Below are positions 22,001 through 37,272 of a DNA stretch of 64,000 nt, piece after piece; within the stretch, counting starts at the first letter, position 1; every line of letters begins with the position of its first letter. The stretch spans positions 2,170,001-2,234,000 of the forward strand of contig NZ_JAHWXM010000001.1 of the NCBI RefSeq assembly GCF_023091225.1, given 5' to 3'. This stretch comes from Microbacterium galbinum. GTDB lineage: Bacteria > Actinomycetota > Actinomycetes > Actinomycetales > Microbacteriaceae. Under the pieces are notes generated by a model. The model did no database searches. It was not told the origin of the DNA and worked only from the letters and a program-made list of their open reading frames with translations. The translations under genes and the position numbers were made by a program.

Positions 22001-22574
22001 CGACCGTGTGCGGAATGTTCACGCCGCCGACCGACTTGTTCGACGATGTGCCCGTCGACTGCGGCGACTCGCCGGGTTCGGTGATGATCACCTTCTGGGT
22101 CGTGGGGGTGCCGTCGACGTTCCAGACCAGGTCGCGGACCTCGGACCGCTGCACCTTCTCGACCGTGAACGAGAGATCGAGAACACCCTGGTTCACATCG
22201 GCCGGGAACGGATCGTTGAACGTCACGACGAGCTCGCCGGCGGCGTTGACCGCGAGGGAGTGAACGGCGGTGTTGCCGTCGGGAACGGTGAGAGCCGCAT
22301 CGGGGATCGTGATCCCCGACGGCAGGCCGATCGCGACGACGGCGCCGTCGTCCATGCTGCCGTAGCCGAGCTGGAAGGCGTAGGTTCCACCCTCCGTCAG
22401 CACGGGCATGCCGTTATGTCCGCTTCCGGTGTCGACCGGGAAGACCGTGACCGTGCCACCCGCGGCGAGCGCCGGAGCGCTCAGCCCGCCGATGGACATG
22501 AGGGCGACGAGGATACCCGCCAGCCAGTGAACGAATGTGCGCGCGCGGGATCGCCGCGCGATGTGCTCAGACAT
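19086..22574 (-). CDS. SpaA/SdrD-B-type pilin-like adhesin with LAxTG anchor (1162 aa)
   Basis: The signal peptide ends near SAPALAAGG (residue ~38). Several long beta-rich domains follow (~40-825). A SpaA-like domain (~830-930) has the expected Lys start LLKRDSTDAAKLITDAGARF and closes with WLREDVAPAGYQL, an E-box-like pattern that in pilins supports an intramolecular Lys-Asn bond. An SdrD-B-like domain comes next (~945-1075; IGDVTWIDANKDGRQDDDE, GVTVELIQDG, GRYLFDELPAGEYRV). A Pro-rich linker precedes LATTGG, a membrane helix and RRRRAA. GGAG lies upstream of the ATG. Likely an adhesin or pilus subunit; no class C (pilus) sortase is nearby. Confidence 0.9.
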   Translation of the reverse strand: MSEHIARRSRARTFVHWLAGILVALMSIGGLSAPALAAGGTVTVFPVDTGSGHNGMPVLTEGGTYAFQLGYGSMDDGAVVAIGLPSGITIPDAALTVPDGNTAVHSLAVNAAGELVVTFNDPFPADVNQGVLDLSFTVEKVQRSEVRDLVWNVDGTPTTQKVIITEPGESPQSTGTSSNKSVGGVNIPHTVVDGRVVIDPSALDIALPYTVTVSSREARDITVTDTLGAHLAFVEGSLAGTKVVRDANDLNPVTTALTDLPAISGTSFAHTFRAEANSIYTFTYRATIADAAALEAVRADLQRAYDAVDKINGGSYSVTVTNQVDVNGTKHSAGTAIRGSVKGQDRPGTGAAFGKTVDPTAVQLQKQLAAGATLETAIDATYTLRADLRVFADFADGPFALTRNVVIRDTLPAQTSWKTDAAGFLTAIDQDGTAVALRPATGITSDVEKTIAADEYRGTYVVDGKNLFVNIGKDVTREYRLSAAATITALPQQASSDNQYATQYRVSNDAYFVYDDGKYESKSASTTITVPKDTSGGVDDPGRFSKTAPGGTVSVTGGTSTTIPYTFRIGENVGDAATSRIVDEIDHSIFDVTAATLPAIKESITGAYDYNYPLDGDTFDVTIAEDGTLVIAPNDAFPKDAAWGAAAAPFTKSWTITVDLPTQVLQGKQTIEVDNSARYEGGGQEIVYTSTSRTTATSFGNEMEVRKRVYDAANDAFTGSLRVEMDAEGALTQTDFIYRVELLPHGTFTHMVEDVVDVLPAGVEFLGWVAPGDVTSGTTTGGATCTVPGTNITAAYDASTDTVTLERGRLVSGETLALFFKVRVVDYQANVGITNMIGAVGATITPTNDYPLNLLKRDSTDAAKLITDAGARFSVLADDQQTVVLSDLRVVDGKIVTAEGTTPTVKSAGTFWLREDVAPAGYQLATELTRIAVAANGVSDDVVLYNTPGTTPEPEKTYAIGDVTWIDANKDGRQDDDEQVLPGVTVELIQDGEVIATTTTDERGRYLFDELPAGEYRVKFTLTADQKKTYVFTQADAGADDTVDSDADTTTGMTQTIVLGPDNVHLSRDYEWNDVRATEGVDPTWDAGVIVREAPTEPTPGTPGAGAEEPGESPVDPARPGTPGVNALATTGGDLPLALAGIALLLISGGAVTFAVRRRRAA

Positions 22575-22631
22575 CGATTACTCCAGAACAGATGAGGGGG
22601 CGCGTCAATGGGGGGACGCACCCCTGCGTCG

Positions 22632-22647
22632 GTACCGATTCCGGTAC
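22632..22647. promoter_or_regulatory. 16-bp inverted repeat A upstream of the 1162-aa adhesin
   Basis: GTACCGATTCCGGTAC: 6-bp arms around ATTC. It shares a core with the repeat at 22729-22744, so both are probably bound by one dimeric regulator. Confidence 0.5.
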
Positions 22648-22728
22648 TCGTCGAACGCCGCGGCCTCGGGAACCGGGCGTTCACGCACGGGTCCGAAGAC
22701 CCCTGCACTGGAGAGACGGGGAAGAAGG

Positions 22729-22744
22729 GCTCCGATTACGGAGC
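22729..22744. promoter_or_regulatory. 16-bp inverted repeat B upstream of the 1162-aa adhesin
   Basis: GCTCCGATTACGGAGC: 6-bp arms around ATTA, 97 bp from repeat A and five bases from the 11-bp direct repeat at 22750. Confidence 0.5.
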
Positions 22745-22749
22745 GCGGT

Positions 22750-22767
22750 GGGTGAACCGGGGGTGAA
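22750..22767. promoter_or_regulatory. PHO-box-like direct repeat upstream of the 1162-aa adhesin
   Basis: GGGTGAA at 22750 and 22761 (TTCACCC on the minus strand), 11-bp period, the same unit and spacing as at 19006-19023 but in the opposite orientation relative to its gene. Confidence 0.45.
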
Positions 22768-22850
22768 GTTCACGGATTGGAACGAGATCGTCGCAGGACG
22801 AACGCAGGGACGGGCACCGGCCCATCCGCGCGTTCACCCTGCGGGATCCC

Positions 22851-24272
22851 TCAGCCGACGACGACCTGAGGTTCTGACACGGCCTTCAAGCCTTCGATAC
22901 CGAACTCGCGCCCGTAGCCCGAGTGCTTGGCTCCACCGAACGGGACCATCGGATGCAGACCGCCGTGCGAATTGATCCAGACGGTGCCGGCCTGGAGGCG
23001 ACCGGCGACCTCCTGCGCCGCCGCACGATCGCGCGACCAGACCGAGGCGCCGAGCCCGAACTCCGACTCGTTCGCGAGGGCGACGACGCCATCGATGTCC
23101 GAGTAGCGGATGACGGGCAGAGCGGGCCCGAACTGCTCCTCGACCACCAGGGGGTTATGGGGGTCGATATCGGCGATGATCGTCGTCGGGTAGAAGTGCC
23201 CGGCGGCTGCGGGATCCGGTTCGCCACCGAGCACGATGCGGGCACCGGAATCGCGCGCGGCGCTGACCAGCCGCGCCACCGTCTCGTACTGCTTGCGATT
23301 CTGCAGAGGGCCGAGAAGATTGCCTGTGTCGAGCCCAACACCCATCGGCACGGCAGCCGCGAAGGCCGCGAGGTGCGAGACGACGTCGTCGTACACATCG
23401 TCATGGACGTAGAGCCGCTTGAGCGCGGCACATGTCTGCCCCGTGTTGATGAACGCACCCCAAAAGAGGCCCTCGGCGATCGCGGCCGGATCGACATCCG
23501 GAAGCACGATGCCCGCGTCGTTGCCACCGAGCTCGAGGGTGAGCCGGGTGACGTTGCCCGCGCTCGCCTCGATGATCTGCTTGCCCACCTCGGTCGACCC
23601 CGTGAACATGATCTTGCCCACGCTCGGGTGCGCCGCCAGCGCCTGACCGATCGTTCGCCCGGAGCCCGTCACCGTGATGAGGACGCCCTCCGGAAGGACG
23701 ATGTTGAGGATGGCGGCGATGGCGAGGCCCGACAGATCGGTCGACTGCGCCGGTTTGGCGACCACCGTGTTCCCCATCCGCAGGGCGGGCGCGATCTGCC
23801 AGATCGCGATCATCATCGGCCAGTTCCATGGCGTGATCGCACCCACGACGCCGATCGGTCGGTAGTGCATCTCGGCGAAGGTCGATTCGTCGTCGACCAC
23901 GACCTCATGCGGGAGCGGCGTGTCGGCCGTCGCCCGCAGCCAGGCGACGCATCCGCCGACCTCGAACCGCGCGTTTAACCCTTCCAGCGGCTTTCCCTGC
24001 TCTCGGGAGAGCAGCTCGGCGAGCGGCTCCGCCCAGCGCTCCACGGCATCTGCCGCATCGTGCAGGTAGGCCCGCCGCGCATCGTCGGAGAGCGCCGCCC
24101 AGCGCGGCTGAGCGGCGTGCGCCCGTTCCACGGCGCGCTCGAGCGCCGATTCGTCCTCGACGGGAGCGCGACCGATGAGCGCGCCCGTCGCCGGATCGAA
24201 CACATCATGCGCAGCACCGTCATGAGCCTGGATGCGGGAGAGAAGTGCGTCGTACGTGATCGTTTCTGGCAT
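22851..24272 (-). CDS. NAD(P)-dependent aldehyde dehydrogenase (473 aa)
   Basis: Oxidises an aldehyde to the carboxylic acid. Family residues are in place: N150 (ITPWN), K173 (VVAKP), E247 (LTLELGG) and the nucleophile C281 (GQTCAALKR). Length is typical. It is the last gene of the leftward catabolic operon, 69 bases after the Ntn-hydrolase gene, with AGGAACGG upstream of the ATG. Context suggests it removes the aldehyde made by an amine oxidase such as the flavoprotein at 34729-35943 (inference). The true substrate cannot be read from sequence. Confidence 0.92.
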   Translation of the reverse strand: MPETITYDALLSRIQAHDGAAHDVFDPATGALIGRAPVEDESALERAVERAHAAQPRWAALSDDARRAYLHDAADAVERWAEPLAELLSREQGKPLEGLNARFEVGGCVAWLRATADTPLPHEVVVDDESTFAEMHYRPIGVVGAITPWNWPMMIAIWQIAPALRMGNTVVAKPAQSTDLSGLAIAAILNIVLPEGVLITVTGSGRTIGQALAAHPSVGKIMFTGSTEVGKQIIEASAGNVTRLTLELGGNDAGIVLPDVDPAAIAEGLFWGAFINTGQTCAALKRLYVHDDVYDDVVSHLAAFAAAVPMGVGLDTGNLLGPLQNRKQYETVARLVSAARDSGARIVLGGEPDPAAAGHFYPTTIIADIDPHNPLVVEEQFGPALPVIRYSDIDGVVALANESEFGLGASVWSRDRAAAQEVAGRLQAGTVWINSHGGLHPMVPFGGAKHSGYGREFGIEGLKAVSEPQVVVG

Positions 24273-24341
24273 GGTTTTCCGTTCCTGTGCTTTCGGCGTC
24301 GTCGCCGAGATCGAAGGGATGTAGTGAGATGGGAGTCGCGG

Positions 24342-26726
24342 TCACGGCCCGCATTCGGCGGGGTCCGCAGAGCGCGGCCGCTGCCCCGCGCGGAGGAGGA
24401 TCCGATGCGCAGCATGGCGGCCGATCGCGTCCTCGCTGTACACGAGAGGGAACGTGCGCCCTCCCACCCAGTCCGCGAAGAGATCGTCGTAGTGCGGTGA
24501 TCGGGGGTCCCCCGATTGTCCGGGGCTGTTCATCGCGACGCTCGCATCCCAGTCGCCGACATCGATCACCATGCGGAAGGTCGAGCCGGTGGTCTGACGG
24601 AAGTCGGCGTCGTACGCGGCCAGCCCCACGGTGTCGCCGCTGCCGCCGCGCGGCAGCGGACCGACGACGCCGCGTGCTCGCCCCGCGAGGAGCGGATGCC
24701 GGAGCTCGGCGCGGAGCAGTCGGCCCCAACACCAGGCAGCGCCGCCCACCTCGGGGCCGAGGAGAGAGGTGATCTCCGTGATCGCAGCGGCGAGCGTCTC
24801 GTTCACGACCGCTGCGATGCGCTCCGGCGAAGAGGTTCGCGTCGCCCACGTCACGAGTTCGATGTCTCCGCGCAGGTCGCCGCCGGCGGACTCATCTCTG
24901 GTCGCCGCGGCCACGGCCGCGTCCATCGAGGATCCGGGGATGCCGGTGGAGGCGAAGTACTCCGTCGCGAGACGCCCTCGGAGGTGACGCCGGGCCCAGA
25001 TCTCGAAGACGAGGGCGCCGCGCGAATCGGCCGAGGTCCGCCCGTTCCAGCGGCAGAGCGCGTTCCATTCCCCCGTCATATCCGTTTCCGAAGGGATCGC
25101 CTCTTCCAGTAGCTCGACGATCGCCAGCGCATGCTCGGAGAGATCGTCCTGCTGCATCGCCGCACTCGATTCGATCGAGACGGCGTCGTCGAGCGCCAAC
25201 CACGCTTTGATGCGGTCGGCGCGCGCCGAGGAGTACCAGTCGTGGGTGATCGTGAGGGTGTCGTCGAAGCCCTCCGGTATGTTCGCCTCGTTGGCCGACG
25301 CAAACCACCCGCGGGGCGAGGCACGTTCCGACGGCAGTTCACCCGTCGTCGCGAAGCCTTCCCACTCGTACGCGCCGTCACCCGGCACAGGCAGACTGCC
25401 GTCCCACCCGCGGCGACGCGGGATCCTCCCCGAGGCCTGCCACCCCCAGTCCCCTTCGACCGTCGCATAGATCTGGTTGACCGCGGGGGCACCCCAATTC
25501 GCGAGCGCCGCAAGAAAACTCTCAGCGTCGACGGCATCCCCGTAGCCGACGCTGGCGAGGTAGGGCACCATCCCCGGTTCGAGCCAGGCCGCGCGCAGCG
25601 CCACGGCGAACCCACGTTCGTCGTCGACATGGATGATCGGTCCATGCACGGTGCGCAGCAGCCTGGCCTCTACGGCCTCGCCATCGCGCACCTCGATCGT
25701 GTCGACGATCTCATCGAAGTCGACCCATCCCTCGGGGCCTCGGTACTGACCCGGCCGCGCGGGGTCGAGATCGTAGACGTACAGGTCTTCGACATCGGCC
25801 GGCCAGATCGTCAAGCCGAAGGCGACGGAGTCATTGTGACCGATCGCGATCCCCGGGAGTCCCGGCTCGCCGGCCCCGATCACATCGAGGCCTGGTGCGC
25901 GCAGATGCGCAAGGTAGCGGAGCGACGGAAGGGTGACGGCTCGGTGTGGGTCGTTCGCGAGAACGGGGCGCCCCGTCGTGGTCCGGCTGCCGTCGACCAC
26001 CCAGTTGTTGCTGCCCCCTTCATGCTGGGGCGTCACGGCGCTCTCCGAGAAGGAGACGGGTGCGAAGGCGCGATCGTACGTCTGCATGACATCGTCGAGG
26101 AGCGCTAGGTCCAGGCCGTCCGGCACCGACACCGGAGTGTCGGGTTCACGCGTCTGCCGGACGCGCTCGACGTCCGGCCCGCCGGAGCGCAGCGCCCGCG
26201 CCCGCGCGACCTCGTGCGTCGCGTTGTAGAACAGTCCGTGCGTGCGGAACCGGACGATGTCGTCGTCGCCCCAGAGCTCCGGGGCGTAGCCCTGCTGCAC
26301 GAACTCCGGAGGGAGACGACCGGGTGCCGCGCTCGCCCACCGGACGTATGCGTTGATGCCGGCGACGAATGAGCGCACCGCCTCCCGTGTGCCTGCGGCG
26401 TACGACTCCCATTCCGCCTCGATGTCGCCGCGGTACAGGAAGAGCCGGTTCGCGTGGTCCTGCGCCAGGTGCTCCGGCCCGAAAGCTGCCGATAACCGTC
26501 CGAGCCCCCGGCGACGCCACAGATCGATCTGGAAGAGACGATCGCGCGCGGCATTGAAGCCCTGCGCGACGAAGGCATCCGCGCGCGAACCCGCGGTGAT
26601 GTGCGGGACTCCCCACAGGTCGATGACGATCTCGACGTCGGAGTCGAGGCCCTCGACCACGAAGACGTCGAAGGGGATGCCATCCTCCGGGGGCGCCGTC
26701 GGCCCTGGTTCGTTCTCGGAGCTCAC
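24342..26726 (-). CDS. Penicillin acylase family Ntn-hydrolase, no signal peptide (794 aa)
   Basis: N-terminal-nucleophile hydrolase that cleaves an amide bond between an acyl group and an amine. The nucleophile is Ser239 in GGSNNWVV; autocleavage between Gly238 and Ser239 would give an alpha part of ~238 and a beta part of ~556 residues. Other family landmarks: WGVPHI near the N-terminus, RDRLFQIDLWRRRGLGR, and GHNDSVAFGLT. Most relatives carry a signal peptide; here the N-terminus is polar and acidic (MSSENEPGPT), so processing should occur in the cytoplasm. That fits a substrate brought in by the adjacent ABC importer. The ATG overlaps the permease stop (ATGA). Confidence 0.9.
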   Translation of the reverse strand: MSSENEPGPTAPPEDGIPFDVFVVEGLDSDVEIVIDLWGVPHITAGSRADAFVAQGFNAARDRLFQIDLWRRRGLGRLSAAFGPEHLAQDHANRLFLYRGDIEAEWESYAAGTREAVRSFVAGINAYVRWASAAPGRLPPEFVQQGYAPELWGDDDIVRFRTHGLFYNATHEVARARALRSGGPDVERVRQTREPDTPVSVPDGLDLALLDDVMQTYDRAFAPVSFSESAVTPQHEGGSNNWVVDGSRTTTGRPVLANDPHRAVTLPSLRYLAHLRAPGLDVIGAGEPGLPGIAIGHNDSVAFGLTIWPADVEDLYVYDLDPARPGQYRGPEGWVDFDEIVDTIEVRDGEAVEARLLRTVHGPIIHVDDERGFAVALRAAWLEPGMVPYLASVGYGDAVDAESFLAALANWGAPAVNQIYATVEGDWGWQASGRIPRRRGWDGSLPVPGDGAYEWEGFATTGELPSERASPRGWFASANEANIPEGFDDTLTITHDWYSSARADRIKAWLALDDAVSIESSAAMQQDDLSEHALAIVELLEEAIPSETDMTGEWNALCRWNGRTSADSRGALVFEIWARRHLRGRLATEYFASTGIPGSSMDAAVAAATRDESAGGDLRGDIELVTWATRTSSPERIAAVVNETLAAAITEITSLLGPEVGGAAWCWGRLLRAELRHPLLAGRARGVVGPLPRGGSGDTVGLAAYDADFRQTTGSTFRMVIDVGDWDASVAMNSPGQSGDPRSPHYDDLFADWVGGRTFPLVYSEDAIGRHAAHRILLRAGQRPRSADPAECGP

Positions 26727-27757
26727 GATCCCACAGGCTCCGCGGGTGTGCGCTCAGTCGTGGCGCTCGTGCGTCGAACGAGACGTTGCGCATCCCGAGC
26801 CATGAGCTTGCCCCGCAGAATCTGCGTTCCGGCGTTGATCGCGATCGCTGCGACGAGTGCCGCACCGCTGGCGACGTTCTGCCAGAACGTCGACACCCCG
26901 AGCAGCGTCAGGCTGTTCGACAGCAGCCCCATGAACAGGACGCCAATGAGGACGCCGAACATGTTCCCGCCACCGCCGGTGAGGATGATGCCGCCGAGAA
27001 GCACGGCGGTGAGCACCGAGAGCTCGAACCCAACGCCGAGCTGACCGGCGGGAGCGCTGTTCAGACGCGACACGGTGAGCGCACCGGCGAGGCCGGCCGC
27101 CGCTCCCGAGAACATGTAGAGGAAGAACGGGATGCGCCGCACCGCGACGCCCGAGAGGTATGCGGCCTCCCGATTCACCCCGATCGCGTAGATGTGGCGA
27201 CCGGCAGGAGTCACCGTGAGGAACAGACCCGCCACGAGCAGAAGGACGAAGGCGATCAGTGCCGAGACCGGGATACCGACGACCGATCCCACGCCGAAGA
27301 CCGAGAAGCTCGCGTCGAAACCTGAGATCGGCAGCGGGGCGACGAGCTGCGCCACGCCACGCACGGCCGCCAACATGCCGAGAGTGGTGATGAACGACGA
27401 CAGTCCGACCATCGTGATGAGAATGGCATTCACCACGCCTACCAGCATCCCCCCGAGAACTGCGGCGGCAAGAGCGAGCGGCGCCGAGCCGGTCGAATGC
27501 ATCGTCAATCCCGCGAGCACACCGCCGAGCGCCAGCGTGGATCCCACCGAGAGGTCGATGTATCCCGCGATGACGAGCATCGCGATGGGGATCGCGACGA
27601 TCGCGATGATCGCCGCATCCTGCAGCACGCCCCGCATGTTGCCGGTGGTGAGCTGCGAACCGGTGGTGATCTGCACGACGGTGACCATGATCACGAGGAG
27701 GACGACGAGCGGGTTGCTGACGACGCCATGGAGCAGGCGCGAGCCGAGTGAGCTCAT
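26723..27757 (-). CDS. RbsC-type ABC importer permease (344 aa)
   Basis: Hydrophobic protein with about ten membrane segments typical of BPD_transp_2 permeases of the ribose/sugar class (YIDLSVGSTLALGGVLAG is the family signature, followed by GLSSFITTLGMLA). It overlaps both neighbours by four bases (ATPase upstream, Ntn-hydrolase downstream), so it is tightly coupled. It forms an importer with the ATPase and lipoprotein genes next to it. The family covers sugars, AI-2, purine nucleosides and other small molecules, so sugar specificity should not be assumed. Confidence 0.92.
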   Translation of the reverse strand: MSSLGSRLLHGVVSNPLVVLLVIMVTVVQITTGSQLTTGNMRGVLQDAAIIAIVAIPIAMLVIAGYIDLSVGSTLALGGVLAGLTMHSTGSAPLALAAAVLGGMLVGVVNAILITMVGLSSFITTLGMLAAVRGVAQLVAPLPISGFDASFSVFGVGSVVGIPVSALIAFVLLLVAGLFLTVTPAGRHIYAIGVNREAAYLSGVAVRRIPFFLYMFSGAAAGLAGALTVSRLNSAPAGQLGVGFELSVLTAVLLGGIILTGGGGNMFGVLIGVLFMGLLSNSLTLLGVSTFWQNVASGAALVAAIAINAGTQILRGKLMARDAQRLVRRTSATTERTPAEPVGS

Positions 27758-29289
27758 GCGGGGACCTTTCGGGTTGCCTCGGTATCGCGAGGCGGATGGG
27801 AGTCGGTGTGGATCAGGGTGAGGAGGTACTCGTCCGAGATTTCGGGGATCTCATCGATGGTGATGTCGTCGACCACCGCCCCCGCGTGCATGACGACGCA
27901 TCGGTGAGCCAGTTGCAGGACTTCCTCCGGTTCGTTGCTCGCGAAGACGACGGCAACATTCCGTTCAGTGGCGAGGCGCCGGATCACTTCGTAGATCTCC
28001 GCGCGCGCCCCAACGTCTACGCCCTGCGTCGGGTCGTCGAGCAGCAGCACCCGCACGCGCGAAGCGGTGTTCACCCAACGGGCGATCAGCACCTTCTGCT
28101 GATTCCCGCCCGAGTAGCGCTCGACCGGGAGGTCGGGCGCATTCGGCCGCACCGACATCGCGCCGAACGAGTCATGGACGAGCTGGTTCTCGCGTCCGAT
28201 GTTCCGCACCAGGGCACCGCCGATGTCTCCCATCACCCGGGTGAGGATGTTCTCGCCGGCGCCGAGGATGCCGAAGAGACCCTGACGTTTGCGATCACTC
28301 GGGACGAAGGCGATGCCGGCCTGCAGGGCACGGTCCGGGTTGCGCGGGTCGACCGGCTCGCCACCCACGCGCACGGTACCCGAATGGGCACGACGCCCGA
28401 ACAACCCCTCGAGCAGGCGGCTGCGACCGGATCCGATCAACCCGTAGAGCGCGACGATCTCTCCCTCGCGGAGGGTGAGATCGACCGGCGCGCTCGAACC
28501 CACCCGGAAGTCACCGAGTTCGATCGCCGTCGACGCACCGGGCCTCAGGGGCGCCGGCGCGACTCGCGCGGTCGCGGTGCCACCCGAGATCGCCGTGACG
28601 AGATCGTCCTTGACGAACCCCGTGTCGTCGGATGCCCAGACGACCTTTCCCCCACTGAGCACGGTCGCTCGATCCGCGACCTGCATCACCTCGTTGAGAA
28701 GATGCGTGACGTAAAGGATCGCAATCCCCTGCGCCTTCAGCGAGAGCACCACTTCCGCCAGGCGGCGAGCCTCCACCGGCGAGAGCGCCGCGCTCGGTTC
28801 ATCGAGGATGAGCAGGTGGGCATTGCGCCGCAACGCCTTCGCGATCTCGACCATTTGACGCTGGCCCATCGAGAGCTCGCCGACGATCGCACGCGGGTCG
28901 ATGTCGGCACCCACCCGTGCAAGCGCCTCCCGTGCCGACGCGACCTGATCCGCTCCGCGGATGAGCCCCCTGCGAACGAGTTCCTGGCCGAGGAAGAGGT
29001 TCTCCGTCACCGTCAGGGTGTCGATCAGCGAGAGGTGCTGATAGATGACGGCGATGCCGGCTCCGATCGACGTACGTGGATCGAGAGCGGAGTGCTCGAC
29101 TCCATCCACATCGATGACCCCCTGGGTGGGCGCGGTGCGCCCACCCAGGCATCCGATGATCGTCGACTTACCGGCTCCGTTGTGCCCGAGGAGGGCGTGG
29201 ACTTCGCCGGAGGCGATCTCGAGGTCAACTCCGTCCAAGGCGAGCGTCGCGCCGTACCGCTTCGTGAGTCCGCTGACCCGGACGGTCAT
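27754..29289 (-). CDS. RbsA-type ABC importer ATPase with two ABC domains (511 aa)
   Basis: Energises the importer. Domain 1: Walker A GHNGAGKST, signature LSMGQRQM, Walker B LLILDEPSAAL. Domain 2 has a degenerate Walker A (GLIGSGRSR, Lys replaced by Arg), signature YSGGNQQK and Walker B RVLLLDDPTQGVD. The degenerate second site is normal for RbsA-type proteins. It starts two bases after the binding-protein stop and overlaps the permease start by four bases. Confidence 0.93.
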   Translation of the reverse strand: MTVRVSGLTKRYGATLALDGVDLEIASGEVHALLGHNGAGKSTIIGCLGGRTAPTQGVIDVDGVEHSALDPRTSIGAGIAVIYQHLSLIDTLTVTENLFLGQELVRRGLIRGADQVASAREALARVGADIDPRAIVGELSMGQRQMVEIAKALRRNAHLLILDEPSAALSPVEARRLAEVVLSLKAQGIAILYVTHLLNEVMQVADRATVLSGGKVVWASDDTGFVKDDLVTAISGGTATARVAPAPLRPGASTAIELGDFRVGSSAPVDLTLREGEIVALYGLIGSGRSRLLEGLFGRRAHSGTVRVGGEPVDPRNPDRALQAGIAFVPSDRKRQGLFGILGAGENILTRVMGDIGGALVRNIGRENQLVHDSFGAMSVRPNAPDLPVERYSGGNQQKVLIARWVNTASRVRVLLLDDPTQGVDVGARAEIYEVIRRLATERNVAVVFASNEPEEVLQLAHRCVVMHAGAVVDDITIDEIPEISDEYLLTLIHTDSHPPRDTEATRKVPA

Positions 29290-29291
29290 CG

Positions 29292-30284
29292 TCAGCCGCC
29301 CAGCTCGATGATGTAGTCGTCGAGGTCCGGGCTCTCGGCGGTCACGAAGTAGACCGGCACGTCGAACCGCTCCGTCTCCTCTCCCTTCCCGAGCTTGACC
29401 GGGAAGTCGACGATCGCCTGGGCGAGCTCGCTCGACTTCACCGTGACGACGCCGCGGACGAAGTTGCCCGCCTTCATCTCCTGGTACAGCGTGAGGTTGC
29501 CGTCGAGCCCGCCGAGGTAGGTGTTGGCGTCGTTCGCCGCTCGGCCCGAGGCGATGAGAGCCTGATATGCGCCGGCTGCGGCGTCACCCGAGGTCGCGAC
29601 GACGACGTCGACATCCGGATGCTGCGCGAGCACGGCCGATGTCACGCTCAGTCCCTCGTCGGGCGTGATCGCCTGCTGCTCGATGATCTCGGCATCCGGC
29701 GCCGCGGCCTCGAGCCCGTCGAGGATGCCGGTGGTGCGCTCCTGTCCGAGTTGAATCGACCTGTCTCCGAGTACGAGCACCTTGGCGGCACCGTCGAGGT
29801 TCTCGGTGATCCACTCGCCGGCATCCTCGCCGAGCATCTCGCCCGAGTCGTGGAAGCTGAACTGCAACGACGACGACTGCTCGTCCAGGTCACCGCCGTA
29901 CGTCACCCACAGTTTTCCCTCATCCATGTACTGCTTCGCAACCGTCTGCACGGCCGCGTTGTCCATGGGGAACGAGACGACGGCATCGATGTCGGATCCG
30001 AGGTGGGTGGTGAGCTGGCTCACTTGGGTCGCGAGGTCCATGTTGTCGTTCGTGAAGACGACCTCGACCCCTTGCGTCTCGGCGTACTCGGCGACGGCCT
30101 GCGTCAGCGATGCGTACACGGGGAGTGCGGTGAACGGATAGTCGAAGAGGATCTTGTTGACCTCGCCGGACGATACCGGGCCGCTGGAATCGCTCGCCGG
30201 AGCGTCGTCCATGGTGCAACCCGCGAGCAGGAGAGCGCTCGACGCGACGAGAGCAGCCAGGGCTGTGGCACGTGATTTGTTCAT
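29292..30284 (-). CDS. Substrate-binding lipoprotein of the RbsABC-type importer (330 aa)
   Basis: Periplasmic-binding-protein fold of the ribose-binding class, anchored as a lipoprotein: lipobox LLLAGC with the Cys at about residue 23, then a Ser/Asp linker. Typical motifs are VVSFPMDNAAVQ in the first lobe and VVVATSGDAAAGAYQAL in the second. GAGG precedes the ATG by five bases. It lies 24 bases after the amidohydrolase gene and directly before the ATPase gene. The ligand is unknown. Confidence 0.92.
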   Translation of the reverse strand: MNKSRATALAALVASSALLLAGCTMDDAPASDSSGPVSSGEVNKILFDYPFTALPVYASLTQAVAEYAETQGVEVVFTNDNMDLATQVSQLTTHLGSDIDAVVSFPMDNAAVQTVAKQYMDEGKLWVTYGGDLDEQSSSLQFSFHDSGEMLGEDAGEWITENLDGAAKVLVLGDRSIQLGQERTTGILDGLEAAAPDAEIIEQQAITPDEGLSVTSAVLAQHPDVDVVVATSGDAAAGAYQALIASGRAANDANTYLGGLDGNLTLYQEMKAGNFVRGVVTVKSSELAQAIVDFPVKLGKGEETERFDVPVYFVTAESPDLDDYIIELGG

Positions 30285-30308
30285 TGGAGCCTCATTCTTG
30301 AAGGGATT

Positions 30309-32003
30309 TCATCGGGTAGAACGGGGTGGAGCGGATGCCCGAGCCGGGTGGTCCGAGCGGTCGTACACTTTCTCGCCGGCGAACCAGGTCTGTCCGGTGA
30401 CGATGTCTGCGAGGGCGGAGGAAGGGATCGACAGCGGGTCTGCGTCGATCATGATGAAGTCGGCGGAGAGTCCCGGCGTCAGACGCCCGGTCACGTCGGC
30501 GAGACCGAGAGCGTCGGCGGACGTCGTCGTGAAGGCGCGAAGAGCCTCTATGACGCTGATACCCTGCTCCGGCCAGAGTGCACCCGGGGTGCGCCCGGTC
30601 GGGTCGCGACGGGTCACGAGTCCCGAGATCGCGTGCCACGGATTCGGAGATTCCGATACCGGCCAGTCCGACCCGGCGACGAGCAGCGCTCCGGCATCGA
30701 GGAGATCGCGGTTCGGGTGGATGCGCGCCGAGAGCTCGTCCGGAAGCACCTCGTGCAGCGCCTGCGGAATGACTCCGGGATACCAGAGGAAGGGCGAGAT
30801 CTCCGCGACGACGCCGAGCGAGGCGAACCGCGCGATGTCGTCCGGGTGGATGAGCTGGCCGTGTGCGATATGGACGATCAAACGACGCCCCTCGGCGCGC
30901 GCAGCCTCGACGACATCGAGGACCAGGCGCACGGATGCATCACCGGTGCAGTGCACCTTCACTCCGAGTCCTCGATCATCGATCAGGCGTACCCAAGCGA
31001 GAAGCTCGTCGAAGGTCATCACGGGTGTGCCGGTGTGCTCGGCCCCGTGCTCGCCGGTCGCGCGGTACGGCTGGAGGAGGGCCGCCGTGTGCGTCGGCGG
31101 AACTCCGTCGAGGAAGATCTTGGTGAAGTCCGGCCGGTGCCGCTGTGTGCGGTAATGCTCGCCGTACGGCAGCAGCTCTTCGCCCACCTGAGTGTTGCCG
31201 AGGATGGTGTCGTTGACGAGCATCGAGGTGACGGCCCAGGAGGTGAGCCGCCCGTCCTCGCTGAGGCGGTGCAGTGCTTGGAGCAGGCCGAGCGAGGTGG
31301 AGGCGTCCTGGAACGCCGTGATGCCGAAGGCATGCATCATCTCAAGGGCTCGCTCGGAACTGCGTGCCAGGCGGTCGATATCGATGCCCTGATCGTTCAC
31401 GACGCGCTGCTCGACGGCTCCCGCCGCGGTCTCGAACAGGAGCCCCGTCGGTTCGCCGCGTTCGTCGCGCACGATGCGTCCGCCCTCGGGATCGTCCGTT
31501 CGGGCGTCGATACCGGCCGCACGCATCGCGGCGGAGTTGACCCATCGGTTGTGGTGCGAGTCGTCGCTGAGCAGCACAGGGTGCGCGGGCGACACGGCGT
31601 CGAGTCTCGTGAGCGCGTCGGATGAGCCCAAGGTACCGACGAGCGTCGACCCCCAGTTGCCACCGAGCACCCACTCACCGGGCGCGAGCTGCTGGGTGGC
31701 GATCCAGCCGGCGACCGCCGCGCAGATCGCGTCGACGGTCGCGTCGGGGGCGAAGGAAACACGGAAGAGATCCTCTTCGCCGGCCAGGTGGTGATGATTG
31801 TGCGCGTCGATCAGCCCCGGAAGGACGGTGGCGCCGTGCAGGTTGATGACGGACGTGGTCTCGTCGATGTACGCGTCGATGTCGCGGTCATCGCCGATCG
31901 CGACGATCAGACCATCGTCGACCGCCATGGCCGATGAGACGGGCCGGTCGGGATCCATCGTGCGGACCGTCCCATTCCGCACCACGAGGTCGGCAGATGC
32001 CAT
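30309..32003 (-). CDS. YtcJ-type amidohydrolase (564 aa)
   Basis: Metal-dependent hydrolase of the amidohydrolase superfamily, YtcJ/Amidohydro_3 class. LPGLIDAHNHHH gives the first metal ligands, LLSDDSHHNRWVNS is the class landmark, and LIVHIAHGQLIHPDD and AGSDWPVS supply further ligands. No signal peptide is seen. ATG 32003 was chosen because GAGGGG lies seven bases upstream. It is the first gene of the leftward operon, directly upstream of the importer genes. It may open a cyclic amide, carbamate or N-formyl bond of the imported compound or an intermediate (inference). A palindrome at 32045-32058 sits 42 bases upstream. Confidence 0.88.
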   Translation of the reverse strand: MASADLVVRNGTVRTMDPDRPVSSAMAVDDGLIVAIGDDRDIDAYIDETTSVINLHGATVLPGLIDAHNHHHLAGEEDLFRVSFAPDATVDAICAAVAGWIATQQLAPGEWVLGGNWGSTLVGTLGSSDALTRLDAVSPAHPVLLSDDSHHNRWVNSAAMRAAGIDARTDDPEGGRIVRDERGEPTGLLFETAAGAVEQRVVNDQGIDIDRLARSSERALEMMHAFGITAFQDASTSLGLLQALHRLSEDGRLTSWAVTSMLVNDTILGNTQVGEELLPYGEHYRTQRHRPDFTKIFLDGVPPTHTAALLQPYRATGEHGAEHTGTPVMTFDELLAWVRLIDDRGLGVKVHCTGDASVRLVLDVVEAARAEGRRLIVHIAHGQLIHPDDIARFASLGVVAEISPFLWYPGVIPQALHEVLPDELSARIHPNRDLLDAGALLVAGSDWPVSESPNPWHAISGLVTRRDPTGRTPGALWPEQGISVIEALRAFTTTSADALGLADVTGRLTPGLSADFIMIDADPLSIPSSALADIVTGQTWFAGEKVYDRSDHPARASAPPRSTR

Positions 32004-32044
32004 GTCATCACCCCTCTTCGTTGAAATCGTGTGACTCACTATAT

Positions 32045-32058
32045 TGAGCATGTGCTCA
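32045..32058. promoter_or_regulatory. Palindromic operator candidate between divergent catabolic operons
   Basis: TGAGCATGTGCTCA: 6-bp arms around TG, in the 159-bp gap between the amidohydrolase gene and the first TetR gene. The placement suits a TetR dimer controlling the leftward operon and itself. Confidence 0.6.
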
Positions 32059-32162
32059 GAAAAATGTCCAGTACGTTTCGGAACTGTAACGATGCCTTTA
32101 TCTTCTTGGTTCCGACCGGGCCTCGTCCGGTGCCTTCGGCTCGCATGAGAGAAGCTTGATCC

Positions 32163-32789
32163 GTGCCGAAGATCGTCGACAAGGGTGCCCGTCGCCTCGA
32201 GATCCTCGAGAGCTATCTCGGACTCGTGGCTCGTGAAGGTATGCAGCGTGCGACATCGCGGCGACTCGCCGAGGAGCTCGGCGTCGCGACCGGGGCGCTC
32301 TGGCACTACTTCGCGAACTACGAGGAGATGCTTTCGCGGGCCTTCCGACTCGTGTTCGAGCGCACGAACGAACGCATTGCCGGAGCCACTCACGGACGTC
32401 GCGGTCTCGACGCGCTCGAACGCATGATCGAGCAGATCCACCCCCTGGAGAAGACCTCCCACGATGAGGCACTCGTCGTGGTCAGCTTCTGGGGACGAGT
32501 TGCCACTCATCCGAGCTACTCCGATGACCAGCGCTTCATCGAGCGCCAGTGGCACGCCGCCTACATCACCCACATCGGAGAGGCCATCGCGGACGGCGAG
32601 CTCGATCCCGCAACGCCGTCCACCCCGCTCGCCGATGCGCTCGTCGTACTCGCCGTCGGATACCAGGTCGAGCACGTCCTCACCACACCGCTCGCCTCAC
32701 CCGAAGCGCAGATGCGCGTGGTGCGCGCACTCCTCGCCCCGTGGATGACGAGCAGCGCCTCTCTCGAACGCCTCGAGCGGTTCGAGTAG
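32163..32789 (+). CDS. TetR/AcrR-type regulator 1 (208 aa)
   Basis: The N-terminal helix-turn-helix is clear (ATSRRLAEELGVATGALWHYFANYEEML), followed by a helical ligand-binding domain of normal length. It uses a GTG start with GAGAGAAG upstream. It is divergent from the catabolic operon and followed after nine bases by a second TetR gene with a similar start (MPKIVD versus MPKNVD), so the pair probably arose by duplication. Likely the repressor for the palindrome at 32045-32058 (inference). Confidence 0.9.
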   Translation: MPKIVDKGARRLEILESYLGLVAREGMQRATSRRLAEELGVATGALWHYFANYEEMLSRAFRLVFERTNERIAGATHGRRGLDALERMIEQIHPLEKTSHDEALVVVSFWGRVATHPSYSDDQRFIERQWHAAYITHIGEAIADGELDPATPSTPLADALVVLAVGYQVEHVLTTPLASPEAQMRVVRALLAPWMTSSASLERLERFE

Positions 32790-32798
32790 GAGGCGCGA

Positions 32799-33389
32799 GT
32801 GCCGAAGAACGTCGACCACGACGCGCGACGAGCCGACATCGTCCGCGCCGTCTGGCGACTCATCGCTCGCGATGGGATCGAAGCGGCGAGCATGCGCCGG
32901 ATGGCTGAAGAGCTCGGCTTCGCCAACGGCGCACTCGCCGGCTATTTCCCCCACAAGCGCGCCATCCTCGCGGCGGCGTTCCGCCACGTCTACACCGCCA
33001 CGAACGATCGGTACGAGGTGGACCGACAGCGGGGACTGCGCGGGCTGCCGGCACTGCGCGCTTTTCTCCTCCAGGTGTTCCCACTCGACGAAGAGCGTTT
33101 GCTCGAAGCACGTATCGCCATCCCGTTCATGGAGCACGCGGCACACGATGCTGAGATGCGCGAGCTGTATGTCGAGCTGATGGCAGGGTGGCAACGCGAA
33201 CTACGAGTCCTTCTCCACGAAGCGATCGATGAGGGCGACGCCGCACCTGACCTCGATATCGATGTCGTCGTCGCACACCTCATCGGGGTCTCACAGGGTG
33301 TTCAAGCGTCCCGGGTCCTCAACCCCGATGACACCTCGCCCGCGGTCCTGCGGGGCATGATCGAGCTTCTCCTGCGCTCGGTTCGCTGA
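32799..33389 (+). CDS. TetR/AcrR-type regulator 2 (196 aa)
   Basis: Helix-turn-helix with ASMRRMAEELGFANGALAGYF and a helical ligand domain of normal length. GTG start with AGGAGG. It is co-directional with and nine bases after regulator 1, and the two share the MPKxVDxxARR opening. The second domains diverge, suggesting that each responds to a different ligand (substrate and intermediate, for example). The region 33390-33510, with its inverted repeats, separates it from the two oxidase genes and may be its target. Confidence 0.9.
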   Translation: MPKNVDHDARRADIVRAVWRLIARDGIEAASMRRMAEELGFANGALAGYFPHKRAILAAAFRHVYTATNDRYEVDRQRGLRGLPALRAFLLQVFPLDEERLLEARIAIPFMEHAAHDAEMRELYVELMAGWQRELRVLLHEAIDEGDAAPDLDIDVVVAHLIGVSQGVQASRVLNPDDTSPAVLRGMIELLLRSVR

Positions 33390-33400
33390 CGCGCTCGAAT

Positions 33401-33478
33401 GTAACGGCTGAGTTACGACTGTCGGAGTTCTTCGCGGTGGACATGGACTCTGTGCCAGAGTCTCTACACCCGTAGAGA
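33401..33478. promoter_or_regulatory. Cluster of three inverted repeats upstream of the oxidase genes
   Basis: GTAAC/GTTAC (33401-33416), GACTCT/AGAGTC with a 5-base gap (33446-33462) and TCTCTAC/GTAGAGA with a 4-base gap (33461-33478). The last ends 32 bases before the ATG. Probably a promoter/operator region. Confidence 0.5.
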
Positions 33479-33510
33479 AACGCGCTCCGCGCCTGCCCGA
33501 AGGATCGTCC

Positions 33511-34695
33511 ATGGCCGTCAGCTACTCCCCTCGCCGCTCCCATCCTGCGCAAGCGCAGGCGACGAACCCCACCGCCATCGACTTCCTCTACCTGTCTGAG
33601 CCCGACATGGTCGCCGCAGGGGTCACCGACATGCCGGCGTGCGTCGACACGATGGAGGAGACGCTCCAACTGCTCCACTCCGGCGACTACCGCATGGCCG
33701 GGGTGAACAGCGACTCGCACGGAGCGATGATGACCTTTCCGGAGAACTCCCCGTTCCCCGGAATGCCCGAACCCACAGCGGATCGACGCTTCATGGCGAT
33801 GCCCGCCTACCTCGGCGGAAGCTTCGGCACGACGGGCGTCAAGTGGTACGGATCGAACATCGCGAACCGCGACCACGGCCTCCCGCGCTCGATCCTCATG
33901 TTCCTCCTCAGCGACACCGTTACCGCAGCTCCGCTCGCCCTCATGTCCGCGAACCTGCTCTCGGCTTACCGAACGGGGGCGGTCCCCGGCGTCGGAGCCC
34001 GTCACCTCGCGCGTCATGACGCGCGGACCGTCGGGATCGCCGGGCCCGGAGTGATGGCGCGGACGTCGCTCGCGGCTTTCGTGGCCGCCCGTCCCGGCAT
34101 CACCACGGTGAAGGTGAAAGGTCGCGGTCGACGAAGCCTCGATGACTTCACGCAGTTCGTCCGAAGCGAATTCCCCAGCATCACCGACATCATCGAGGTC
34201 GACACCTTCGAGGAAGTCGTACGCGACAGTGACATCGTCACCTACTGCACGTCAGCCGCGACGGGGGATCCCGCAGGTTATCCTCTCGTCCGCCGCGAGT
34301 GGGTGAAGCCGGGAGCCTTTCTCAGCATGCCGGCCGCCTGCAACATCGATGAGGCGATGGAGGAGTCCGACGTTCGCAAGGTCGCCGACCACATCGGCCT
34401 CTACGAGGCGTGGGCCGACGAGGTTCCCTCTCCCGCGCACCACCACATCCCTGTCATCGGTTGCAAGTTCATGGACCTGATCGCCCAAGGGCGGATGGCA
34501 CGGGATTCCCTCGAGAGCCTCGGAGCGATCGCCGCGGGCGATGCGCCCGGGCGGAACGACGACGAGATCATCATCCTCTCGGTGGGCGGCCTGCCTGTGG
34601 AAGACGTCGCCTGGGGAACGGTCGTCTACCGCGAGGCGGTTCGTCGGCAGGTCGGCGTGCCTCTGCACCTCTGGGATTCCCCGGTCCTCGCCTGA
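33511..34695 (+). CDS. Ornithine cyclodeaminase/mu-crystallin family protein (394 aa)
   Basis: Rossmann-fold OCD-family protein: TVGIAGPGVMARTSLAAF is the dinucleotide-binding loop, preceded by the substrate-side region GTTGVKWYGSN and PLALMSANLLSAYRTGA. At 394 residues it is longer than typical OCDs (~330), with an extra N-terminal ~50. I recall actinobacterial annotations naming similar proteins tyramine oxidase subunit B, which would fit the flavin oxidase 33 bases downstream, but I cannot verify this. It could supply or reduce an imine or amino-acid-like intermediate. GAAGGATC precedes the ATG. Confidence 0.8.
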   Translation: MAVSYSPRRSHPAQAQATNPTAIDFLYLSEPDMVAAGVTDMPACVDTMEETLQLLHSGDYRMAGVNSDSHGAMMTFPENSPFPGMPEPTADRRFMAMPAYLGGSFGTTGVKWYGSNIANRDHGLPRSILMFLLSDTVTAAPLALMSANLLSAYRTGAVPGVGARHLARHDARTVGIAGPGVMARTSLAAFVAARPGITTVKVKGRGRRSLDDFTQFVRSEFPSITDIIEVDTFEEVVRDSDIVTYCTSAATGDPAGYPLVRREWVKPGAFLSMPAACNIDEAMEESDVRKVADHIGLYEAWADEVPSPAHHHIPVIGCKFMDLIAQGRMARDSLESLGAIAAGDAPGRNDDEIIILSVGGLPVEDVAWGTVVYREAVRRQVGVPLHLWDSPVLA

Positions 34696-34728
34696 GCACC
34701 TTTCCAATCGCCCCTCACGAAAGCAGTC

Positions 34729-35943
34729 ATGGCAATGCGCAGCACGGATATCGTCGTCGTCGGCCTGGGAACGATGGGATCGATGACTCTCTGGCAACTT
34801 GCGACGACGAGCGATCAGAGCGTCCTCGGAATCGAGCAGTACGGCCCTGTGCATGCCAACGGCGCGTACGCCGGAGAGTCGCGCCTGTTCCGTGTCGCCG
34901 CGAAAGAGGGAGAGCTCTACGTCCCGCTACTGCAGCGCTCGCGCGAACTCTGGGTGGAACTGGAGCGGCAATCCCAACGCGAGATCCTGATTCCGTGCGG
35001 CGTGCTGAGCCTTGGCCCCCGTAGCCACCCCGACATCGTCGCGACGCGACGCGCGATCGACGATTTCGCTCTTCCTCATGACGTTCTCGATCCTGTGAAC
35101 GTGCGAACTCGATACCCCCAGTTCCATGTCGAGGACGACGACATCGGGATCTTTGACCCCCTGGCTGGCGGGCTTCGGCCGGAGGTCGCCGTCCACGCCG
35201 CCACGCAGCAAGCGGTGCGAGCGGGCGCAGAAGTCCTTTACAACACAGGGGTGCGCGGTATCGACGTTCGCGGTGACCATGTGATCGTCTCGACCGACGC
35301 GGGCGAGATCCGCGCGAGCAAGGTGGTGGTGACCACGGGCGCGTGGACGACGAGATTGCTTCCCGACCTGCGACCGCTGCTGACGGTGAGCACCTATCTG
35401 CTCACGTGGTTAATGCCGCGTCACATCGAACAGTTCATGCCGACGCGCTTCCCCGCTTTTCTCCGCGATCTCGGGGACCTTCACGCGTTCGGCGCTCCGT
35501 CTTTCGATGGGTACAGCATCAAGTTCTGCCCGAACCGGTTGCTCCCCGACGTCGCGTCCTTCGAGGAATGGCCGACCACCGTGGGCCGCGAGCATCTGCG
35601 CTGGATCGGAGAGCAGGCTGAGCGGCTGTTCCCCGATCTCATCCCCGATCCCGTGCGATGGTCGTTGCACTCCGATTCGGAGACGAAGGACAAGATGCCC
35701 CTCATCGATTCGTACGAGGACGGGCGCATCACCCTGGCCGTGGGCATGTCCGGGTACGGCTTCAAGTTCGCGCCTGTCTATGGCCAGCTCGTCGCGGATC
35801 TCGTGACGACGGGAGCAAGCGATTGGCAGCACGATCTCTTCCGCATCGAGGGTCACCTCGCCCGTAATCTCAGGGTTCCTTCACGGAGTCGAGCGAACGA
35901 TTCGATGGGGCCGACGAAGGCCGACGAGCACCACGCCCAGTAG
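34729..35943 (+). CDS. FAD-dependent sarcosine oxidase/N-methyltryptophan oxidase family protein (404 aa)
   Basis: Amine-oxidising flavoprotein of the MSOX/SolA family. The FAD loop is VVVGLGTMGSMTLW, with GESRLFRVAA and, near the C-terminus, GMSGYGFKFAPVYGQL. In bacterial MSOX a Cys shortly before this last motif holds FAD covalently; the equivalent stretch here, DSETKDKMPLID, has no Cys, so FAD is probably non-covalent. The product would be an aldehyde or imine, which the aldehyde dehydrogenase could consume. The C-terminus runs ~20 residues past the usual end and overlaps the convergent surface-protein gene by 63 bases. Confidence 0.88.
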   Translation: MAMRSTDIVVVGLGTMGSMTLWQLATTSDQSVLGIEQYGPVHANGAYAGESRLFRVAAKEGELYVPLLQRSRELWVELERQSQREILIPCGVLSLGPRSHPDIVATRRAIDDFALPHDVLDPVNVRTRYPQFHVEDDDIGIFDPLAGGLRPEVAVHAATQQAVRAGAEVLYNTGVRGIDVRGDHVIVSTDAGEIRASKVVVTTGAWTTRLLPDLRPLLTVSTYLLTWLMPRHIEQFMPTRFPAFLRDLGDLHAFGAPSFDGYSIKFCPNRLLPDVASFEEWPTTVGREHLRWIGEQAERLFPDLIPDPVRWSLHSDSETKDKMPLIDSYEDGRITLAVGMSGYGFKFAPVYGQLVADLVTTGASDWQHDLFRIEGHLARNLRVPSRSRANDSMGPTKADEHHAQ

Positions 35944-37272
35944 GAGGGCCGAGATCGCCGCGATGATGGCGGGCAGTCCGGTGGCGCCGCCGGACTCGGC
36001 GAGGGCGGGAGCCGCAGCAGCACCGCCGCCGCCAGTGCTGGGTTGCGGGGCCGGTGCGGCCACGACCGGCGTGGTGACGGCATCCTCGACGGCATCCGTC
36101 TCGGCCGAGCTCGCCCGTCCGGTGTTCACGACCTGGCCGGCGACGAGGTCGGCGTCCGTCACCCGGTGCGTCGCCGTGAGCACGCAGGTCGCCCCGACCT
36201 CCACCCGCTCGCACGAGGTGCTCTGCCCCGTGAGCGGGTCGTCGATCGTCACGGCGGTGAGAGCGGCCTCACCGGTGTTGGTCGCCGTGAGCGTGTAACT
36301 CAGCGTGTCGCCGACGGTCACCGTTCCCGAGCCGTCGGCGTCGTCGCTTCCGGTGAGGTCTTTCACGAACGTCAGCGCCGCGACGGGGCACGCCCCCGAG
36401 TCCTGGCGCGAGGTCGCGCCGTACAGCGGGAGATCGGTCGTGGCGACGGCGGACGTCGCCAGCGGCGCTTCGGATGCCGTGGTCGGGATGCCGTCGAGCA
36501 CGAGGATCTCGCCGGTCGATGCCGCGAGGTACACGCGTCCGCCCGAGAGCGCCGCACCGAACGACAGCGGCACCTGGCCGACGACCGTGCTGGTGCCGGC
36601 GGCGAAATCGAACAGCACGAGGAACCCGCGGTCGGCGCCGTCGTGGGCGAGACCGAGGATCAGGCCGGAGTCGAGGGTGAGGAAGTCGCCGCCCGAGGCG
36701 AGGTACGTCTCGCCGTCGGCCAGCATCGGGAAGCTCACCGGCGCATCGGTCAGCCGCGCGGTCTCCGGATCGAGGAACCAGATGCTCGTGTACTGGTACC
36801 CGGCCGCGAGGAGTCGGCCGTCGGCGGTCGCGGAGAGCGAGTTGAGCCAGTTGTCCTCGAAGGGGGCGCTGCCGTCGTCGAACAGGATCTCGCCGGCATC
36901 CGTCGAGACGCCCGTCGCGGCATCGATCGTGAAGAGGTGCTGCGGGTCGGTCCAGTCCACCCCGTAGAGCACGGTCTCATCGGCGTTCCAGGCGATGTCG
37001 CCGAACGAGCGGTCGAGCGCGACACTCGACTCGAGCGCGAGTGCACCGGTCGCGGCATCCGCCCCGTAGCGCTGCAGGGTGAGCGGATCTTCACCGCTGT
37101 TCACGTAGACATCTGCGGGCACGCAGGCCCCGGGCGTCACCGCGAGCGGAACCTCCGCCGCCTGGGCCGGCACCGCAGCCGCGCCCGCTGCCATCGCGAG
37201 CGCGAACACCCCGCCGAGAGCTGCGAGAACCCGCCTCCGTGCACCACGAATCGTGCGCGTCGAAACCGTCAT
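35881..37272 (-). CDS. Secreted surface protein with propeller-like and DUF11-type domains, LAESG anchor (463 aa)
   Basis: The signal peptide ends near VPAQAAEVP. Residues ~50-320 show repeated short blade-like strands (GDIAWNADETVLYGVDW, LLAAGYQYTSIWFLDPET), suggesting a beta-propeller. One DUF7507-like repeat follows (LTFVKDLTGSDDADGSG, YTLTATNTGEAALTAV), then a Pro/Gly linker and LAESGG, a membrane helix and RRPHR. LAESG is a degenerate form of the LAxTG motif seen in the island at 2-22 kb, with Ser in place of Thr; whether it is sorted or simply membrane-held is open. ATG 37272 has GAGGGG nine bases upstream. Confidence 0.85.
   Translation of the reverse strand: MTVSTRTIRGARRRVLAALGGVFALAMAAGAAAVPAQAAEVPLAVTPGACVPADVYVNSGEDPLTLQRYGADAATGALALESSVALDRSFGDIAWNADETVLYGVDWTDPQHLFTIDAATGVSTDAGEILFDDGSAPFEDNWLNSLSATADGRLLAAGYQYTSIWFLDPETARLTDAPVSFPMLADGETYLASGGDFLTLDSGLILGLAHDGADRGFLVLFDFAAGTSTVVGQVPLSFGAALSGGRVYLAASTGEILVLDGIPTTASEAPLATSAVATTDLPLYGATSRQDSGACPVAALTFVKDLTGSDDADGSGTVTVGDTLSYTLTATNTGEAALTAVTIDDPLTGQSTSCERVEVGATCVLTATHRVTDADLVAGQVVNTGRASSAETDAVEDAVTTPVVAAPAPQPSTGGGGAAAAPALAESGGATGLPAIIAAISALLLGVVLVGLRRPHRIVRSTP

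Follow-up and report, generated by a model that had tools for sequence, protein, structure and literature searches.

In Microbacterium galbinum, a stretch of 64,000 nucleotides (contig NZ_JAHWXM010000001.1, positions 2,170,001 to 2,234,000; hereafter the window) carries an island of ten genes that we read, with a probability of roughly 0.55, as a transferable island for the catabolism of an N-acylated aromatic monoamine of the tyramine or phenylethylamine type. Substrate, reactions and regulation are all predicted from sequence. The route would begin with import of the amide by a lipoprotein-RbsA-RbsC transporter. A YtcJ-type amidohydrolase, a cytoplasmic Ntn-hydrolase of the penicillin-amidase type, or both, would then split the amide into amine and acid, and an OCD/mu-crystallin-type protein (OCD) would act with a flavoprotein to turn the amine into an aldehyde, the step that relatives leave to a copper amine oxidase. 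An aldehyde dehydrogenase (ALDH) would convert this aldehyde to an arylacetic acid, destined for a homoprotocatechuate or phenylacetate pathway whose genes lie in other parts of the genome. Control of the divergent arms would fall to TetR-family repressors.

N-acylated aromatic amines occur as natural products, and the island suggests a route for their salvage by bacteria. No N-acyltyramine pathway with the genes of this island was found described in the open-licence literature. A report on Corynebacterium glutamicum states that N-acetyltyramine is not degraded and mentions tyramine oxidases of Kocuria and Micrococcus (PMC13281258).

The island as a presence/absence unit

Gene families were assigned with Pfam and NCBIfam profile searches, and all named genes are intact (Table 1). 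The minus-strand arm is compact, in the order YtcJ, binding protein, RbsA, RbsC, Ntn-hydrolase and ALDH: RbsA/RbsC and RbsC/Ntn-hydrolase overlap by 4 bp each, and the other gaps measure 2, 24 and 69 bp. The original prediction for this stretch had claimed such a six-gene operon and, on the divergent arm, an OCD-like and a sarcosine-oxidase-like protein; both arms are as it described, except that it omitted the two tandem TetR regulators.

Table 1. Features of the island, with positions in the window.
Feature	Position	Strand	Remarks
Whole island	22778-35953	.	13.2 kb, ten genes; flanks 31 bp apart in same-species genome G510
Aldehyde dehydrogenase (ALDH)	22851-24272	-	473 aa; Pfam, NCBIfam
Penicillin-amidase-type Ntn-hydrolase (PF01804)	24342-26726	-	794 aa; nucleophile Ser239 in GSNNW
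RbsC-type importer permease	26723-27757	-	Pfam, NCBIfam
RbsA-type double ATPase	27754-29289	-	Pfam, NCBIfam
Lipoprotein substrate-binding protein (Peripla_BP_4)	29292-30284	-	Lipobox LAGC by eye
YtcJ-type metal-dependent amidohydrolase (Amidohydro_3, PF07969)	30309-32003	-	Start best placed at the ATG at 32003
Perfect palindrome TGAGCATGTGCTCA	32045-32058	.	Between the divergent arms; candidate operator only
TetR-family regulator 1, BetI-type C-terminal domain	32163-32789	+	Pfam
TetR-family regulator 2, BetI-type C-terminal domain	32799-33389	+	Pfam
OCD/mu-crystallin-type protein, NF004848 'tyramine oxidase subunit B' model	33511-34695	+	NCBIfam
Flavoprotein, monomeric sarcosine/N-methyltryptophan oxidase type	34729-35943	+	NCBIfam

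In a second genome of the same species, G510, window segments 21000-22777 (99% identity) and 35954-38000 (97%) adjoin, with 31 bp between them. All ten island genes are missing there, the block being absent as a single unit; elsewhere in G510, island DNA gives short matches only, the longest of about 220 bp at 68%, and the Ntn-hydrolase is without a match at E<=1e-100. Because the block is absent as one unit within the species and its sub-blocks recur elsewhere, the grouping of these genes goes beyond chance. The island is a presence/absence unit, either gained here or lost in G510, and the genome without it offers a natural control. The G+C content is 0.666 (22851-35943), against 0.700 for the remaining window. 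The longest word common to both island ends is 8 bp and is not counted as evidence of a target-site repeat. None of the ten genes stood out as an integrase gene; no search aimed at integrases was made.

Copper amine oxidase beside related YtcJ blocks

In a sample of 148 Microbacterium genomes, relatives of the binding protein with at least 54% identity occur in six (G000, G024, G070, G080, G093 and G146), the next best reaching 33%, and the order YtcJ-binding protein-RbsA-RbsC is retained in all six. An ALDH of 61-65% identity lies beside YtcJ in G024, G070, G093 and G146, at the end opposite to the window arrangement and divergently in G146; the overall range for ALDH relatives near YtcJ in other genomes is 58-65%. 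G080, without an ALDH in the 20 kb taken around the block, has YtcJ, importer, OCD and flavoprotein in one same-strand run. A further genome, G600, carries ALDH-YtcJ-binding protein-RbsA-RbsC-MoaF-permease-FeaR-TetR2 on a stretch that ends before any oxidase could show. A search for the six-gene order, proposed with the original prediction, did not find it in its exact form: five of the six genes recur together, but there the ALDH lies on the YtcJ side and the Ntn-hydrolase is missing.

These recurrences bear on the idea that the island is a composite of unrelated modules, in which a sugar-type importer, an acylase and an amine-oxidation pair became adjacent by accident. The importer does belong to a sugar family, and both the Ntn-hydrolase and the OCD-flavoprotein pair occur without the remainder in other genomes. 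However, the island comes or goes as one unit, the importer is tied to YtcJ in six of six genomes, and importer, YtcJ, OCD and flavoprotein are together again in G080, which makes an accidental composite quite improbable.

Related Microbacterium islands carry MoaF, an amino-acid-type permease, FeaR-like regulators and a copper primary-amine oxidase. G024 has the following run: HpaH-HpaD-HpaE-type genes, an FAA hydrolase and further genes, then ALDH, YtcJ and the importer, followed by MoaF, permease, SDR, FeaR-like and TetR2-like genes and a primary-amine oxidase. In profile searches, HpaD, HpaE and the primary-amine oxidase of this run score above the cut-offs; HpaH (341.6, cut-off 351.5) and FeaR (148.7, cut-off 199) do not. 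MoaF genes were present in 11 of the 20 YtcJ loci examined. This family name was once linked to the molybdenum cofactor; MoaF-family genes were also seen in monoamine islands beside YtcJ or permeases (L133:6419-7255, L119, L120, L122, L163).

The linkage was counted in the genomes with a YtcJ match of at least 41% (30 genomes). Copper amine oxidase (PF01179) is present in 28 of them (21/22 and 7/8), compared with four of 17 genomes without a YtcJ match (17 of 20 listed; one of the four matches is weak). With G000 and G080 left out, 22 of 28 genomes have the oxidase no farther than 31 kb from YtcJ (17/20 and 5/8). For the 17 of 20, about 0.6 would be expected for 3.7-Mb genomes, and this number was reached in none of 100,000 random draws. 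The misses are G064, G040, G002, G144 (different contigs), G135 (1.7 Mb apart) and G107 (no oxidase); in G080, the oxidase is found 562 kb from YtcJ. The whole window genome gave no match to PF01179, and neither did G107.

Homoprotocatechuate genes are part of the same picture in G024, G070 and G093, where HpaD lies about 10-12 kb from YtcJ. The linkage to copper amine oxidase and homoprotocatechuate genes is an independent argument for an aromatic monoamine such as tyramine. Both HpaD and PaaA are encoded in the window genome, about 1 Mb from the island, and therefore either arylacetate could be used. Tyramine and phenylethylamine catabolism of the TynA-FeaB-FeaR or Klebsiella monoamine type leads from the amine through an aryl aldehyde to an arylacetic acid. 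The same route is proposed here, and the related islands share with that type the FeaR-like regulator, MoaF and the copper amine oxidase. The window island, in contrast, lacks all three and possesses the OCD-flavoprotein pair, an ATP-binding cassette (ABC) importer and two amide hydrolases. Its ALDH has as best NCBIfam models aminobutyraldehyde dehydrogenase (395.1, cut-off 615) and phenylacetaldehyde dehydrogenase StyD (391.9, cut-off 850), both scores being far below the cut-offs.

The OCD-flavoprotein pair

The window genome and G080 have the OCD-flavoprotein pair instead of a copper amine oxidase at the YtcJ block, and the pair may replace this enzyme. Because it stands where relatives keep the copper amine oxidase, a widespread pair, for which nothing but a database label was found, becomes linked to primary-amine oxidation independently of that label. 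The label itself, 'tyramine oxidase subunit B', had been named in the original prediction and was recovered: the OCD-like protein matches NF004848 with 649.6 bits (cut-off 362).

Pairing was surveyed in 97 OCD loci, 79 from named genomes and 18 from the genus, a few genomes being counted twice. In 96 of them a flavin amine-oxidase-type protein is encoded next to OCD, the exception being L106; 89 pairs were counted by script (same strand, within 3 kb), and six more as well as L063 by tblastn. The flavin partners appear interchangeable: leaving L063 aside (n = 95), 20 are of the window type, 9 are distant, 64 are glycine-oxidase/DadA-like and 2 are others, and the partner in L063 is of the glycine-oxidase/DadA-like kind. 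The pair occurs in Proteobacteria, Actinobacteria and one Clostridia genome. In 62 of the 97 loci, OCD has a RidA-family gene no more than 2.5 kb away.

Some loci show other settings. In a second OCD group of about 49% identity (L030-L038), most loci have, after the pair, genes for a carbamoylase-like amidohydrolase and an AmtB-type ammonium transporter, and some have a GlnK-like or HutD-like gene in addition (all named by eye), which is another nitrogen-salvage setting. In L105:10001-14572, OCD is followed by a small protein and SoxA-like and SoxB-like flavoproteins, a multi-subunit oxidase replacing the single flavoprotein; L086 resembles it by cluster.

Among solved structures, OCD is closest to amino-acid and imine reductases. 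All 98 sequences have Lys111 and Arg154 as well as Pro179-Gly180 of the nucleotide loop, and the nucleotide site as a whole is nearly invariant. OCD differs from SbnB, alanine dehydrogenase and pyrroline-2-carboxylate reductase in having Gly204-Arg205 where these NAD-using relatives have Asp-X, and in its near-constant flavin oxidase neighbour. Since Lys111 and Arg154 are invariant and the nucleotide site nearly so, OCD is unlikely to be a mere subunit and should be catalytic.

The flavoprotein matches NF008425 with 283.4 bits (cut-off 257). Its Arg55 and Lys346, conserved in 21 of 21 sequences, correspond to Arg52 and Lys348 of sarcosine oxidase, which we take to be a carboxylate clamp; OCD, too, keeps residues that presumably serve carboxylate binding in relatives. 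The equivalent of Lys265, presumably the O2-activating residue, is invariant in the same alignment. Unlike monomeric sarcosine and N-methyltryptophan oxidases, the island flavoprotein has a histidine, His314, at the position of Cys315 of sarcosine oxidase, the presumed flavin-linking residue. All 21 sequences (20 distinct) have this histidine, which may hold the FAD.

The original prediction had combined uptake, amide cleavage, oxidative deamination and aldehyde oxidation. Import, hydrolysis and oxidation of an aromatic monoamine derivative agree with the islands of relatives, which have copper amine oxidase, FeaR-like regulator, MoaF and, in three cases, HpaD. Oxidative deamination by the flavoprotein alone, on the contrary, appears doubtful, because the clamp residues are invariant and the closest solved relatives act on amino-acid-like substrates. 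We propose, tentatively and with considerable doubt, a new two-step amine oxidase taking the place of the copper enzyme. OCD, as an NADP(H)-type imine reductase, would join the primary monoamine to a keto acid, giving an opine-like N-carboxyalkyl amine; the flavoprotein would oxidise this secondary amine at the amine-derived carbon, releasing aryl aldehyde and an amino acid. If conjugation by the one and cleavage by the other occur, the logic is that of the N-methylglutamate type of indirect amine oxidation, although the conjugating enzyme of the island belongs to another family and the amine would be an arylalkyl rather than a methyl amine. No OCD-plus-flavoprotein amine oxidase was found described in the open-licence literature.

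Another scheme has a real, if minor, chance of being correct: the flavoprotein would oxidise the free (or N-methyl) amine directly with O2, and OCD would be an accessory subunit or an imine-handling helper. The NCBI label, the near-constant pairing, the frequent RidA-family neighbour and the conserved Lys265 equivalent agree with this. The residues conserved in all 98 OCD sequences, from which catalysis is expected, and the carboxylate clamp retained in all 21 flavoproteins speak against it.

AraC-type regulators near OCD or YtcJ in other loci point to amine oxidation as well. One cluster comprises 22 regulators, of which 12 are found no more than 320 bp from OCD and the most remote at 8.6 kb; all 21 scanned members match QhpR (one with a wrong-looking frame was left out), the score shown being 247 for a cut-off of 250. 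In a second cluster, whose distance to OCD or YtcJ ranges from about 1.7 to 8.3 kb, seven of seven match FeaR, with shown scores all below the cut-off of 199. We take QhpR and FeaR to be regulators of amine oxidation.

Hydrolases, importer and regulators

The closest solved relative of the Ntn-hydrolase is the D-succinylase of Cupriavidus sp. P4-10-C (7eby, 7ea4), with 547 bits over nearly the full length, against 161 for the next family; the Ntn serine in GSNNW is shared. The island enzyme differs in that inspection by eye shows no obvious signal sequence, consistent with cleavage after uptake. D-succinylase is used for making D-Phe and D-Trp, with imperfect selectivity (PMC7431475).

This kinship raises the possibility that the substrate is an N-acyl amino acid (N-succinyl, N-acyl D- or N-methyl-). 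The Ntn-hydrolase would then be a D-succinylase, the flavoprotein would oxidise the freed (N-methyl) amino acid, and OCD would reduce or deaminate the imine. The succinylase score far above other acylases, the sarcosine/N-methyltryptophan oxidase fold with its carboxylate clamp and the position of OCD next to amino-acid and imine reductases are in agreement with such a substrate. We nevertheless consider it unlikely: an ALDH is present, FeaR- and QhpR-like regulators lie near the relatives, and close YtcJ genes cluster with copper primary-amine oxidase.

Relatives of the Ntn-hydrolase are numerous (6802 proteins at E<=1e-30 among the 7993 best candidates), the closest named one being from Microbacterium sp. 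NPDC087665 (69%). The Ntn-hydrolase was also considered as the core of a conserved six-gene operon. This was rejected, as it occurs in only 4 of 366 Microbacterium genomes (E<=1e-100), in G600 it lies about 0.9 Mb from the block, and in G561 and G595 the 20 kb around it hold no YtcJ, kindred binding protein, OCD or matching flavoprotein.

The YtcJ protein scores 287.8 bits against PF07969 and has, by eye, the HNH, K, H, H and D motifs, which we take to be the metal-ligand motifs of these amidohydrolases. It shares its family, and amide hydrolysis as the type of reaction, with NfdA (N-substituted formamide deformylase) and metal-dependent bile salt hydrolases, to which it is likened by family only. 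Their membership of PF07969 is documented (PMC13081902, PMC7468451). The original prediction had looked to the Ntn-hydrolase for amide cleavage, and this is not supported in that form: because that enzyme is the least conserved part of the island and is nearest to D-succinylase, YtcJ is judged at least as likely to be the amide hydrolase.

The binding protein shows only a distant relationship to sugar-binding proteins of solved structure (49 bits at best), and several ribose-contact positions differ from 2ioy by eye. The sugar type of the importer could also suggest deglycation, in which an Amadori (glycated) amine would be taken up and the flavoprotein would serve as an amadoriase, since fructosyl amine oxidases share the flavoprotein fold; this is a very remote alternative. 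Catabolism of an N-acylated aromatic monoamine, as preferred here, predicts instead a substrate class for sugar-type ABC importers and YtcJ hydrolases of this kind.

A relative of the Ntn-hydrolase in G561 directly follows an RbsC-type gene, as in the window. In L149:8900-12291, a 57% relative either touches the end of an RbsC-type permease gene or overlaps with it, in a cluster that is otherwise different and has a GMC oxidoreductase; a polysaccharide-deacetylase-family gene is near the Ntn gene in L149 and L150.

Several points weigh against an N-acylated aromatic monoamine as substrate and against the proposed roles. Relatives of the Ntn-hydrolase in G482, G387 and G437 have no such neighbours, the enzyme is rare in the genus, as stated above, the other island copies seen all lack it, and its nearest solved relative is named for N-succinyl-amino acids. 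HpaD was near YtcJ in only three of 14 genomes examined and present in all 14, so that its presence by itself carries little weight. The proposed replacement of the copper oxidase is based on two genomes, the window genome and G080. Four of eight other OCD-carrying genomes have the copper enzyme as well, which means that the two systems are not mutually exclusive, and G107, which has a close YtcJ, lacks a copper amine oxidase and is absent from the 17 OCD matches listed. Both OCD and flavoprotein retain carboxylate-binding residues, for which a plain amine has no need. A third AraC cluster near OCD (21 aligned) gave weak matches only, in the one member scanned. A source for the 'tyramine oxidase' label did not turn up in the open-licence literature.

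Concerning regulation of the island itself, the palindrome between the arms was found, among 148 loci, only in L001, which is the same place, and the idea of a shared operator was dropped. Scans for promoters and terminators yielded no more hits than shuffled sequences did. TetR regulator 2 has relatives of 46-47% identity beside the copper amine oxidase genes of G024 and G070. Finally, the island is flanked by two surface-protein genes on the minus strand, one (19086-22574) for an SdrD_B/SpaA adhesin with a sortase-like LATTG end (by eye) and the other (35881-37314) for a DUF7507 protein.

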